Part shown: one piece after another, positions 10,546-13,982 of the stretch | Layout of the letters: each line of letters starts with the position of its first letter | Numbering within the stretch: position 1 is the stretch's first letter | Assembly: GCA_011388275.1 (NCBI GenBank) | Contig: DSAB01000119.1 | Location: forward strand, 1 to 41,284 | Origin: a bacterium | GTDB lineage: Bacteria > Zhuqueibacterota > QNDG01 > DSAB01 | DNA: 41,284 bases | Reading direction: 5' to 3' | The notes under the pieces: model-generated | Told to the model about the DNA's origin: nothing | Databases searched by the model: none | What the model saw: the letters and a program-made list of their open reading frames with translations, nothing else | Made by a program: the position numbers and the translations under genes

Positions 10546-10863
10546 ATGCCTGAAAAAGAGATCGAAGGACGTATTTTTGAAGTAGACGGTGACGGTTTTC
10601 TGCAGAATCCGGAAATTTGGAACGATGAGGTAGCCCGCCTTTTCGCCGGCGAAGATGGGACCGGAGAACTGTCCGAAGATCACTGGAAAGTTATTCGATT
10701 TATTCGTGAGCATTGGGAAAACAACGACATGGCACCCATGGTTCGTAAGATCTGCCAGCACACCGGGCTGCGATTGCGGCAGATCTATGAACTCTTCCCC
10801 ATGGGACCGGCCCGCGGAGCCTGCAAAATCGCCGGATTGCCCAAACCGGACGGATGCGTCTGA
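10546..10863 (+). CDS. dsrC: DsrC/TusE-family sulfur carrier with both redox cysteines
   Basis: A 105-aa small cytoplasmic protein of the usual DsrC length. It ends in the flexible arm GACKIAGLPKPDGCV. The penultimate Cys104 and Cys93 eleven residues before it are both present, which marks true DsrC; TusE-type proteins keep only the last cysteine. In sulfate reducers and sulfur oxidisers these cysteines carry sulfur as a persulfide or trisulfide, and DsrC is recycled by DsrMK-type membrane complexes. The next two genes encode just such a complex, starting with a TGATG overlap. No dsrAB sulfite reductase is in the window, so the sulfur donor is unknown. It may work as a redox relay or regulator. 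Confidence 0.93.
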   Translation: MPEKEIEGRIFEVDGDGFLQNPEIWNDEVARLFAGEDGTGELSEDHWKVIRFIREHWENNDMAPMVRKICQHTGLRLRQIYELFPMGPARGACKIAGLPKPDGCV

Positions 10864-11519
10864 TGGCAGAATCCATGAATGCGGCCCGCATTGTCTTTCT
10901 TTCCGGTCTGGGCGTTTTTTTGTTGTCTGCTGTTTATCAATGGATCCGCGTATTCATCAACGCCAATACCGAAGACTTTACACAGCCTAAAGGGACGGTA
11001 CTGCCCGCGTTCGCGTACGCCCTGACAGGCGCCATGATGCCGCATAAAAAAGAGACGGCATTTCTTCACCTACCCACTTATTGGATGGGCATTGCATATC
11101 ATCTCGGTTCATTTGTTGCTCTTGCCTGGCTGCCTGTTCACTTTTTCGAATGGCGTATTCCTGATTCAATCATGATTGTCTGCGCCGCCGTTTTGATTCC
11201 ATCGGTTTTTTCGGGTTTGATAATTTTAATTAAACGGATCAGCGTGTCCTCGCTTCGGCACCTTTCATCGCCGGATGATTATTTCAGCAACGCTCTTGTC
11301 ACTCTATTTCAGGCAATTTCTTCAATGGCTCTTTTGGGTATTATTCCGGTCTTTCTGGTTTTATCCATTGGTGGACTTTTGTTAATGTATATCCCGGTTG
11401 GAAAACTCCGGCATGTGATCTTTTTTCTGATCGCCCGTTTCTTTCTAAGCTGGTTCTATGGACGAAGAGGTGTATGGCCTCCAAAAAGGCGGATATTATG
11501 GAAAAAAAACAATCATTGA
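10863..11519 (+). CDS. cytochrome-b-like membrane subunit (DsrM/TmcC/HdrE-like)
   Basis: A 218-aa hydrophobic protein with about five membrane helices (near residues 6-30, 65-95, 103-126, 145-180 and 185-205) and several histidines in or near the helices. It ends in a YGRRGVWPP-like tail typical of NarI/DsrM-type quinone-reactive cytochromes b. It probably holds two hemes b and exchanges electrons with menaquinone. The start ATG 10863 shares bases with the dsrC stop (TGATG), implying coupled translation; an in-frame ATG at 10854 is less likely. The 3' end overlaps the iron-sulfur subunit gene. The family call rests on topology, end motif and neighbours. It could be TmcC-like rather than DsrM-like. 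Confidence 0.75.
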   Translation: MAESMNAARIVFLSGLGVFLLSAVYQWIRVFINANTEDFTQPKGTVLPAFAYALTGAMMPHKKETAFLHLPTYWMGIAYHLGSFVALAWLPVHFFEWRIPDSIMIVCAAVLIPSVFSGLIILIKRISVSSLRHLSSPDDYFSNALVTLFQAISSMALLGIIPVFLVLSIGGLLLMYIPVGKLRHVIFFLIARFFLSWFYGRRGVWPPKRRILWKKNNH

Positions 11520-12796
11520 CACGCGACCGGGAAAAGGCTCTCAAAGGTTTCGCAATGTCCATGGACGGTCGTCTTCTCGCCCACCTGAACAGTTGCGTCC
11601 ATTGTGGTCTCTGTGCCGAATCCTGCCATTATTATCTAAGCACCGGTGAAGAAAAGTATATGCCGGCCCGAAAGGTTGATCAGCTGGCCCGTATTTACAG
11701 ACGTTATCATACCGTAGCGGGAAAAATATTTCCTCGATGGATCGGCGCCTCGGACTTCAACGATCAGAGTATTCAGGAAATGGTGGACGTACTGTTCGGC
11801 GGATGTACGATGTGCGGACGGTGCTCCCTGCACTGCTCGATCGGCGTAGACATCCCCTTTCTTGTCAGGACGGCCAGAAGTATGCTGGTGGAACTGGGTC
11901 GGGTCTCCCCGGGCCTTCAATCCACCGTGGACGCCGCGGTTCAAACCGGCAACAACATGGCCATTCCCCGTGAAGAACTGGTGGACACCCTTCAGTGGCT
12001 GGAAGAAGATCTTCGTATGGAGGTCAATGATGAAAAGGCGTCCATACCCATGGATGTTCCACATTGCCGCCTGCTATACACACTGAATCCTCGCGAGCCG
12101 AAATTTTTTCCACTCTCTATCAGTGCCATGGCCAAGATCTTTTATGCCGCGGATGAGAGCTGGACCCTTTCGACACACTGCTACGATGTGACGAATTACG
12201 CCTATTATTCCGGAGATGATCATACGGCCGAAGAGCTGACGCAAAGGCTTTTCGATGAAATGATCAAGCTGAACGCTCAGGAACTGGTTCTCGCCGAATG
12301 CGGCCATGGTTCGCGCGCTATTCGCTGGGAAGGACCCCGATGGCTTAAAAAGAAATTTCCATTCCCGGTGATCTCGGTGATCGAACTGATTGCAGGCTAT
12401 ATACACTCAGGCCGAATCGCGGTCGATCCATCGAAGAATACAACTCCCGTGACTCTTCATGACCCGTGTAACCTGGTCCGAGCCGGAGGTGTCATTGAAG
12501 AGCAGCGTTACGTTCTTAAAAAGGTCGTCAGCGATTTTCGTGAAATGACACCCAACCGTGAAAACAACTACTGCTGCGGAGGCGGAGGCGGTCAGCTTTC
12601 AATGGGTGAATACAGGGAAAGGCGGGTTGCCGCGGGTAAAATAAAGGCCGATCAGATCAAGAAAACAGGCGCCGCGATCGTCGCCACTCCCTGTCACAAT
12701 TGTATCGATCAATTGATGGAATTGAACAAAGAATACAGCCTGGGAGTCGAAATAAAAACCGTGGGCGAACTGGTCGCCGATGCGTTGATTCTCTGA
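11498..12796 (+). CDS. iron-sulfur CCG-domain reductase subunit (DsrK/TmcB/HdrD-like)
   Basis: A 432-aa protein. Two ferredoxin-type motifs (CVHCGLCAESCHY and CTMCGRCSLHCSIGVD) lie in the N-terminal third and should bind two [4Fe-4S] clusters. The C-terminal half has one complete CCG motif, C-X34-CC-X38-CxxC (DPC...YCCGGGGG...PCHNC), which holds the noncubane cluster that cleaves disulfides in HdrB/D. The first CCG half is degenerate, as in DsrK. It would take electrons from the membrane subunit and reduce the DsrC disulfide or trisulfide, or run in reverse. The start at 11498 has AGGCGG five bases upstream; ATG 11474 is an alternative with a poorly spaced SD. It overlaps the membrane gene by 22 nt. 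The exact name (DsrK, TmcB or HdrD) cannot be settled by eye. Confidence 0.88.
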   Translation: MEKKQSLTRDREKALKGFAMSMDGRLLAHLNSCVHCGLCAESCHYYLSTGEEKYMPARKVDQLARIYRRYHTVAGKIFPRWIGASDFNDQSIQEMVDVLFGGCTMCGRCSLHCSIGVDIPFLVRTARSMLVELGRVSPGLQSTVDAAVQTGNNMAIPREELVDTLQWLEEDLRMEVNDEKASIPMDVPHCRLLYTLNPREPKFFPLSISAMAKIFYAADESWTLSTHCYDVTNYAYYSGDDHTAEELTQRLFDEMIKLNAQELVLAECGHGSRAIRWEGPRWLKKKFPFPVISVIELIAGYIHSGRIAVDPSKNTTPVTLHDPCNLVRAGGVIEEQRYVLKKVVSDFREMTPNRENNYCCGGGGGQLSMGEYRERRVAAGKIKADQIKKTGAAIVATPCHNCIDQLMELNKEYSLGVEIKTVGELVADALIL

Positions 12797-12818: not shown

Positions 12819-13982
12819 TTATTTCCTTTTGATTTGTGCGATCTCTTCTACCGCCTCCACGGCCCGGTCGATATGGGACTCCGTATTGAAAGGCCCCAGA
12901 CTGAAACGAACCGTTCCATGTATCTTGTCCGTACCAAGTTGAAAATGCACCCGGGGCGCGCATTGAAGCCCGGTCCTGCAGGCGATGTGATAGTCCACAT
13001 CAAGCATTGTGCCCACATCACCGGCCTCCCACCCCTCTATATTGATGCTTAAAACGGCATTCCGGTTCTCACTGGAACCGGCGCAGTAGGTAATAACACC
13101 ATCGATCCGTTCCAATCCGCTTTTCAGCCGATCCCACAGGGCCATTTCCCGCTGATGAATGGTTTCCATTTCCTCTTTGGCGAGCCATTTCTGACCGGCA
13201 TGCAATCCCGCGACACCGATAAGGTTCAGGGTTCCGCATTCCATACGGTAGGGGAATTCCTCCAGATGGTATGGATAAGCCGATCGAACACCTGTACCGC
13301 CGTGGCGGGTAATGCGTATGTCCACATTTTCGGCAATGTAGGATCCTCCGATTCCGGTTGGACCCATCAGACACTTGTGACCGGTAAAAGCCAAAAGATC
13401 TATATTCATTTCCTGAATATCAATCTTGACAGCGCCCGCGGTTTGACTCGCGTCCACGGCGAAAAAAACACCACGATCCCGGCAAATGGCCCCGATTGCG
13501 GACAGATCCTGTACCGTGCCGATGACATTCGATCCGTGATTGACGACGACCATCTTGGTGTTCGGCTTGACGGCTTTCCTGATCTCTTCAGGATCCATAT
13601 AACCGTTTCGGTCAAACGGGACATAGGTCACTTCACAGACCCCGTCACGCTCAAGCACGTTCAAGGGACGCAGGACCGAATTGTGTTCGAGATTGGTTGA
13701 GACAACATGATCGCCCTTTTCCACCATTCCCTGTATAATCATGTTTAAAGAATCCGAGGCATTGTAGCTGAACGTCAAACGGTTGGGATCCGTTCCGTTG
13801 AAAAAATCGGTCAGCATTTTTCGCGTGTTGTGGACTACTTCTTCGGTTTCCAGGGTCGCGTCATAACCCGATCGTCCTGGATTGACTCCGTGTTTCCTAT
13901 AAAATTCATCCATGAAATCATAGACTTCTTTGGGTTTCGGGTAACTCGTTGCTGCATTATCCAGGTAGATCATGTTTTCCAT
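12819..13982 (-). CDS. cysteine desulfurase-family aminotransferase class V
   Basis: A 387-aa PLP enzyme. The PLP lysine is Lys203 in FTGHKCLMGPTG, with the usual VDASQTAG upstream. The active-site cysteine is Cys341 in RTGLQCAPR, the SufS-like spacing. It should remove sulfur from cysteine and hold it as a persulfide. It resembles the stand-alone EF2568-type subfamily more than IscS or SufS, as no iscU or sufBCD is nearby. GGAG lies 5 nt before the ATG at 13982. It is convergent with the DsrC-linked reductase (22-nt gap) and follows dnaE by 118 nt. A link to DsrC as sulfur donor is possible but only inferred from position. Confidence 0.88.
   Translation of the reverse strand: MENMIYLDNAATSYPKPKEVYDFMDEFYRKHGVNPGRSGYDATLETEEVVHNTRKMLTDFFNGTDPNRLTFSYNASDSLNMIIQGMVEKGDHVVSTNLEHNSVLRPLNVLERDGVCEVTYVPFDRNGYMDPEEIRKAVKPNTKMVVVNHGSNVIGTVQDLSAIGAICRDRGVFFAVDASQTAGAVKIDIQEMNIDLLAFTGHKCLMGPTGIGGSYIAENVDIRITRHGGTGVRSAYPYHLEEFPYRMECGTLNLIGVAGLHAGQKWLAKEEMETIHQREMALWDRLKSGLERIDGVITYCAGSSENRNAVLSINIEGWEAGDVGTMLDVDYHIACRTGLQCAPRVHFQLGTDKIHGTVRFSLGPFNTESHIDRAVEAVEEIAQIKRK

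Follow-up and report, generated by a model that had tools for sequence, protein, structure and literature searches.

A widespread two-cysteine DsrC cassette with a membrane redox pair and a probable cysteine desulfurase partner

Introduction

What does a DsrC protein with two C-terminal cysteines do in a genome that lacks a sulfite reductase? The question is raised by a 41,284-nucleotide stretch of DNA from a bacterium of the Zhuqueibacterota (contig DSAB01000119.1 of assembly GCA_011388275.1, positions 1 to 41,284, forward strand; hereafter the window), in which three overlapping genes encode a two-cysteine DsrC, a membrane protein and a CCG iron-sulfur protein. According to PMC3397948, the first tail cysteine of DsrC occurs only together with DsrAB, the exceptions being Methylococcaceae, Marinobacter and Lawsonia. 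A first-pass annotation of the window had described the three genes as the core of the DsrMK/Tmc/HdrDE logic reduced to a minimum, and as a possible quinone-to-thiol relay. The analysis below finds that the cassette is widespread, that its DsrC proteins run against the printed rule, and that, judging from conserved linkage, a dedicated cysteine desulfurase belongs to it as a fourth gene.

Results

Gene organization and distribution

Open reading frames, family profiles and a fold model together confirm the three overlapping genes that had been claimed: a two-cysteine DsrC, a cytochrome-b-type membrane protein and a CCG protein. The DsrC gene (10546..10863, + strand; 105 residues) is preceded, a few bases 5' of its start, by the Shine-Dalgarno-like GAAGGGG. 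The membrane subunit (10854..11519, + strand; 221 residues) has five long helices and a NarI/EtfD-like predicted fold, while the CCG subunit (11474..12796, + strand; 440 residues) carries two cubane-cluster motifs and one noncubane-cluster motif of the HdrB/EtfD type. An alternative start of the CCG gene lies at 11498, and it overlaps with the membrane gene either way.

Scanning 84,980 species genomes gave 173 matches, and the distribution was taken from the best 80 of them. All 80 loci have the membrane gene and 73 have DsrC, always in the order dsrC-membrane-CCG; among the loci with 1.2 kb or more of DNA upstream, 67 of 70 have DsrC. Because the identical gene order recurs at 73 of the 80 named loci, the three-gene set lies far beyond chance. 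These counts retain L054, where DsrC is absent and the membrane gene truncated, and L063, L093, L094 and L099, where the contig edge falls at or just before the membrane gene. They also include L086 and L088, which come from one metagenome-assembled genome (MAG), and L061, which is the same assembly as G059.

By title, the loci belong to Aminicenantes (28), Acidobacteriota (18, including Geothrix limicola Red804), Bacteroidota (16), Zixibacteria (5), Planctomycetota (2) and Eisenbacteria (2), with one each from Ignavibacteria, Fermentibacteria, KSB1, B38 and 'Clostridiales' and four unplaced. The locus titled Clostridiales (L106) groups with Aminicenantes in the CCG tree, and its label may therefore be wrong. 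In the cultured Geothrix limicola Red804 (L120), the three genes and the desulfurase gene stand side by side. Within the window's own phylum, 3 of 82 genomes have the CCG protein (E ≤ 1e-30, at least 65% identity) with an adjacent DsrC. In G004, from the same order but a different family, the flanks inspected by eye are apparently those of the window, GcvPB-like on one side and DnaE-like on the other. Plasmid records yielded distant CCG proteins only (best 28.8%, E 1e-42), which were not used. The cassette is widespread, and no single-genome oddity. As a separate observation, the MAG CSMAG_2559 (L086, L088) holds two cassettes and two desulfurase copies.

A two-cysteine DsrC without DsrAB

The window DsrC exceeds the cut-offs of PF04358 (117.8 bits, cut-off 24.9) and TIGR03342 (102.3 bits, cut-off 53.5), and does not reach the TusE equivalog model PRK11508 (69.6 vs 191 bits). 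Its tail, GACKIAGLPKPDGCV, carries both C-terminal cysteines, Cys93 (CysB) and Cys104 (CysA), and there is an additional Cys70. The last 101 to 103 residues, ending ...GACKIAGLPKPDGCV, align without gaps with DsrC chains of known structure, which are presumably of the Desulfovibrio type. Conservation was counted in per-part alignments of 70 DsrC, 76 membrane, 60 desulfurase and 81 CCG family members. Among the DsrCs, Cys104 is found in 70/70, Cys70 in 69/70 and Cys93 in 65/70; in all, 68 of 73 cassette DsrCs have both C-terminal cysteines.

The first tail cysteine is missing from all 26 other DsrCs examined from the window's phylum. In a DsrC tree, the cassette DsrCs and the DsrAB-linked DsrC of genome G017 lie opposite the one-cysteine copies across a branch with support 100, although the tree is built on few columns and its inner forks are weak. 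The possibility raised earlier, that this DsrC clusters with regulatory copies only, does not hold, since the window protein stands apart from the one-cysteine copies; its identity as a one-cysteine or regulatory copy is ruled out by the tree. The window's genome (2.82 Mb, 155 contigs, 96.5% complete) contains a single DsrC, the two-cysteine copy.

Several other DsrC features were seen. Cys70 also occurs in the DsrAB-linked G017 DsrC, and the five DsrCs of the one-cysteine type that were inspected in the phylum lack it. A second DsrC of G004 (L047:6225-6542, + strand) ends ...KATKIAGLPKPASCI, with Thr for the first Cys, and adjoins an FAD-like protein and, by eye, apparent Nqr-type genes. Partial DsrC-like matches lie within long open frames in L041, G068, G041 and G042 (488-541 residues; 220 in G042), and may be either DsrC-domain fusions or chance.

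A whole-genome search of the window's genome found no siroheme sulfite reductase domain (PF01077, NIR_SIR). As the same search worked as a control in 11 of 14 known genomes, an overlooked DsrAB is rejected, and the absence of dsrAB that the first-pass annotation had noted in the window extends to the whole genome. The genome search that it had proposed for sat likewise returned no ATP sulfurylase. PF01077 is also missing from 47 of the 50 cassette genomes searched; the remaining three (L120, L122 and L126, with Holophagaceae or Geothrix titles) each have it in a single frame of 635-729 residues, with no DsrA and DsrB pair. Of 52 cassette genomes, 15 have ATP sulfurylase; in the other 37 it was not found. 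No dsrJOP genes were seen beside the cassette, no genome-wide search for dsrJOP having been made; there is no cytochrome c gene within the cassette, nor is tmcA in it, for which again no genome-wide search was made. G017 is the only one of 30 relatives with a DsrA/DsrB-like frame pair. The cassette DsrCs are thus a broad, systematic exception to the printed rule that ties the second cysteine to DsrAB.

A cysteine desulfurase as probable fourth component

Clustering of the neighbouring genes across loci brought out one further constant partner, a cysteine desulfurase of the TIGR01977 kind. In the window (12819..13982, - strand), it scores 416.7 bits against a cut-off of 377 and converges on the CCG gene across a gap of 22 bp. 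By profile search, it is present at 66 of the 80 loci, within 150 bp at 53 of them. It is convergent at 41 loci, downstream on the same strand at 21 and upstream at 4; the link has therefore outlived rearrangement. The family is as conserved as the other parts (mean column identity 72%), with His100, Lys203 and Cys341, which we take to be the catalytic residues, in 60/60 aligned sequences.

Of the 14 loci without the desulfurase, 9 have less than 3 kb of downstream DNA, and 11 genomes hold a copy of at least 57% identity elsewhere; no close desulfurase was found in three genomes (L068 and L110, no match; L108, 33% only). At L106 and L116 the membrane pair stands without DsrC, and the DsrC adjoins a desulfurase of the same type elsewhere in the genome (L156, L150). 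Four of the 82 genomes of the window's phylum have a member of the desulfurase subfamily (at least 70% identity), namely all three cassette carriers and G063 (Fisher p = 4.5e-5, not corrected for kinship). G063 is a 56% complete genome in which the desulfurase copy stops at a contig edge. In G059, the contig with the cassette stops shortly after the CCG gene, and the desulfurase is found on another, small contig.

Conserved linkage and sequence thus indicate that a dedicated cysteine desulfurase belongs to the cassette as its fourth gene. The Dsr/Tmc/Hdr-like build proposed in the first-pass annotation stands, while its description as a minimal three-gene unit does not. Beside the cassette desulfurase, a longer SufS-like pyridoxal phosphate protein (492-569 residues) was seen at L145:6066-7544 (+), L177:1691-3400 (+), L058 and L059; it was rejected as a part of the cassette, being present at only 2 of the 80 loci (L058, L059).

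The CCG and membrane subunits

The CCG protein has CCG and Fer4 domains over cut-off. All 81 aligned members match the TmcB, HmcF and DsrK models. Relative to the cut-offs, the window protein reaches 311.6 of 735, 306.5 of 750 and 245 of 400 bits, respectively, and its identity as a true DsrK or TmcB is rejected on these values. A phylogeny against DsrK, TmcB and HdrD had been suggested. In a quick tree of 53 of the 81 members and three references (one TmcB, one DsrK and one DsrK-like protein, no HdrD), the members separate from the references (Shimodaira-Hasegawa-like approximate likelihood ratio test 95), and because the reference branches are very long the tree is used solely for this separation. 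By family score, the CCG protein is no DsrK, ranking TmcB over HmcF over DsrK (312, 307 and 245 bits).

Fifteen Cys/His motif residues are found in 81/81 members. Among them, Cys332, Cys367, Cys368, Cys407 and Cys410 align with the five Cys of cluster D2 in EtfD, Cys410 by spacing, since the alignment ends there. In EtfD, this noncubane cluster has five Cys and one His as ligands (PMC13083937). One full CCG motif is kept in 81/81; HdrB's second CCG motif is lost, and the first domain retains only Cys276-Gly-His278, which aligns with EtfD Cys581-Pro-His583. The model of the CCG protein (predicted local distance difference test, pLDDT, 94) matches EtfD of M. smegmatis with Z 29.0 (2.9 Å over 385 residues) and HdrB with Z about 21-22.

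The window membrane protein has no Pfam family match and weak matches to TmcC/HmcE. A profile search against the sequences of solved structures had no match with E up to 5, so that the assignment depends on the predicted fold (pLDDT 93), for which the best matches are NarI (Z about 11) and then EtfD (Z 9.7, 3.5 Å over 197 residues). These Z values are modest for a helical bundle, but the NarI and EtfD rows exceed the unrelated rows below them, and both halves of the membrane pair pick the same two-part protein, EtfD. His83, His187, Arg128 and Arg205 are present in 76/76 aligned membrane subunits, and the conservation of His83 and His187 marks them as candidate haem-b ligands. EtfD has a single haem b with two His ligands and Arg at the carboxylates (PMC13083937).

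Related proteins were seen outside the cassette. The window's genome has one TmcB-like protein besides a weak GlpC/Hdr-like one. G034 (L046:7558-9515, + strand) has a related membrane and CCG pair at 40% identity, in which the CCG protein scores DsrK highest, and no DsrC match in the genome. In G017 (L044:7115-14944), a near-cut-off TmcB (733.2 vs 735 bits) lies amid membrane and other genes. Elsewhere in the window, an FtsZ of 523 residues (135-1706, - strand) has an extra C-terminal part, residues 405-513, that matches residues 8-119 of the CheA model (E 3.4e-5), the region presumably holding the Hpt domain; an FtsZ-Hpt fusion is possible.

Discussion

A possible relay of cysteine sulfur and electrons

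The reading we favour, at a probability of about one half, is that the four genes encode a sulfur and electron relay: the desulfurase would load DsrC with a persulfide, and the membrane pair would reduce this persulfide, or the disulfide that follows from it, with electrons that travel by way of haem b. The desulfurase would move sulfur from L-cysteine to a persulfide on Cys104; attack by Cys93 would release sulfide and leave a DsrC disulfide (or a tri- or persulfide), which the membrane pair would return to the dithiol. Electrons would run from the single haem b of the NarI/EtfD-like subunit over the two cubane clusters to the noncubane CCG cluster. The net reaction would be cysteine + 2 e- + 2 H+ to alanine + H2S, tied to the membrane. 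The first step has a precedent in vitro, in that E. coli IscS, given cysteine, places a persulfide on the last cysteine of A. vinosum DsrC (PMC3397948).

The proposal builds on gene content, linkage, conserved ligands, predicted folds, co-occurrence and the near-absence of siroheme sulfite reductase domains. The residues of catalytic type are invariant across all parts except for Cys93 of DsrC (65/70). Beyond this, we infer the substrate, the direction, the order of sulfur transfer, the identity of the membrane electron donor and any energy gain.

Four points weigh against such a relay. Firstly, Ala replaces Cys93 in 5 of 73 cassette DsrCs (L069, L071, L076, L080 and L087). These form one clade with support 96, which probably reflects a single loss, and in that clade the intramolecular disulfide therefore cannot be obligatory; direct reduction of the persulfide may be an alternative route there. 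Secondly, His278 of the CCG protein aligns with EtfD His583, which renders that EtfD cluster non-catalytic (PMC13083937). We do not count this as decisive, because the DsrAB-linked DsrK of G017 likewise has E-C-G-H; the CCG protein shares the cysteines of that DsrK except Cys410. Thirdly, a simple cysteine desulfhydrase would be an easier route to H2S.

The fourth point concerns the electron donor. Genome searches found neither MqnA/D (PF02621) nor MenD in the window's genome, and a quinone is therefore not to be taken for granted in this organism; the quinone part of the earlier relay claim is unproven. The four UbiA-family matches in this genome are all below cut-offs, and one is a truncated MenA-like protein. 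Of the 52 cassette genomes searched, 21 have PF02621 and 4 have a MenD that exceeds its cut-off, one genome having both. UbiA-family proteins occur in 52/52, and neither MqnA/D nor MenD was found in 28 of 52, including G000 (the window's genome), G004, G059 and the records titled as chromosomes L054, L067 and L103. By textbook midpoint potentials, the reduction of sulfane sulfur by menaquinol is uphill, and a low-potential carrier, low sulfide or the membrane potential would therefore be needed; the same difficulty arises for DsrMKJOP.

An extension of this relay, which we offer tentatively and consider rather improbable, is that cysteine serves as the terminal acceptor of an uncharacterised membrane electron sink, yielding alanine and DsrC-bound sulfur whose reduction to sulfide would benefit the cell. 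In the many carriers that would lack menaquinone from either known pathway, it would call for an unknown carrier or quinone route.

Alternative explanations

The rival that survives best, though we hold it to be unlikely, is biosynthetic. Here the desulfurase-loaded DsrC would give its sulfur to a cofactor or tRNA enzyme in the manner of TusE, and the membrane pair would merely keep DsrC reduced. The adjacent desulfurase would fit such a role, as would the dispensability of Cys93 in one clade, and the IscS-TusA-TusBCD-TusE-MnmA relay is a known example (PMC3397948). However, the separate clade of one-cysteine DsrCs in the phylum (26/26 without Cys93) would suit a thiolation relay better, the window's genome holds the two-cysteine DsrC alone, and a haem-b/iron-sulfur membrane complex would be an odd requirement for it.

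It is also conceivable, if quite unlikely, that the electrons run the other way, as in reverse Dsr or EtfD: DsrC would acquire sulfide or sulfane sulfur, which the membrane pair would then oxidise, handing the electrons to a membrane carrier. Yet a cysteine desulfurase uses up cysteine and gives sulfane sulfur, and the missing siroheme sulfite reductase domain (47/50 genomes) and ATP sulfurylase (37/52) do not suit an oxidative pathway, even though EtfD, the best structural match, does work in the oxidative direction (PMC13083937) and an oxidation of persulfidated DsrC by DsrMKJOP has been suggested for some genomes (PMC6018796).

The weak match of the window DsrC to LexA_DNA_bind, under that family's cut-off, brings to mind a redox switch in which DsrC would couple the membrane redox state to the desulfurase or to gene regulation with no bulk electron flow. 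This is very unlikely, given that no transcription-regulator family recurs beside the cassette at most loci, where the desulfurase is the constant neighbour, and that the catalytic-type residues are invariant.

Finally, the cassette might be what is left of a dissimilatory sulfite pathway whose dsrAB was lost or went unbinned. This would accord with the related parts and the incompleteness of MAGs, but is scarcely credible when 47 of 50 cassette genomes, spread over many phyla and including the titled single chromosomes L054, L067 and L103, have no PF01077, and when the parts are strongly conserved with the desulfurase, not dsrAB, as constant partner.

Implications

Since two-cysteine DsrCs without DsrAB are widespread, a two-cysteine DsrC alone is no marker of sulfite reduction in metagenomes. 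The exception occurs in widespread uncultured anaerobes (Aminicenantes, Acidobacteriota, Bacteroidota), and it comes with gene partners of its own. The constant desulfurase partner suggests a source for the sulfur of DsrC, which can be put to the test in Geothrix limicola Red804, a named strain. The cassette further bears on the origin of DsrC-dependent electron transport, as such modules can exist without sulfite reductase.

Relationship to known systems

Within the available text of the open-access literature searched (including PMC10504309, PMC6018796, PMC8528874, PMC12998232, PMC11650866, PMC2702500, PMC3397948 and PMC13083937), no account of the four-gene set was found. The nearest printed precedent there is DsrMK without DsrAB, with seven cases in the basal DsrK clade (PMC10504309), a source in which Hmc/Tmc/HdrED appear as related complexes that have to be distinguished.

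With the DsrC-DsrMK system of sulfite and sulfate reducers, the cassette has in common a two-cysteine DsrC, a haem-b membrane subunit and a CCG iron-sulfur subunit, down to the E-C-G-H and most Cys motifs of a DsrAB-linked DsrK. It differs in having a desulfurase and no DsrAB, in the low DsrK score of its CCG protein (245 vs 400 bits) and in its separate branch in the quick tree. The Tmc and Hmc complexes (TmcBC, HmcEF) give the cassette proteins their best family scores, weak for the membrane part (TmcC, HmcE); however, these scores are below cut-off, the cassette has no cytochrome c gene, and its DsrC overlaps the membrane gene in an operon.

From predicted folds and conserved ligands, the two-part architecture of a NarI-like and a CCG subunit, the noncubane ligands and the HdrB fold match recall HdrDE, with no HdrD sequence compared directly. 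Unlike HdrDE, the cassette keeps a single noncubane motif, and its proposed substrate is a protein persulfide or disulfide instead of CoM-S-S-CoB. Over the full length, no structure matches the CCG protein better than EtfD of mycobacteria (PDB 9ojn), which for the membrane protein ranks behind NarI. EtfD also has the single two-His haem b predicted for the cassette, and the noncubane ligands, but it is one chain fed by electron transfer flavoprotein, without DsrC or desulfurase. The IscS-Tus relay, in turn, also has a cysteine desulfurase feeding a protein of the DsrC/TusE family, whereas the cassette has a two-cysteine DsrC with a membrane redox pair and no recurrent TusA/TusBCD-like neighbour, these genes not having been searched genome-wide.

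Set against these systems, the cassette is a variant of the DsrC/heterodisulfide-reductase kind that is undescribed in the literature searched, and it points to an uncharacterised movement of cysteine-derived sulfur and electrons.

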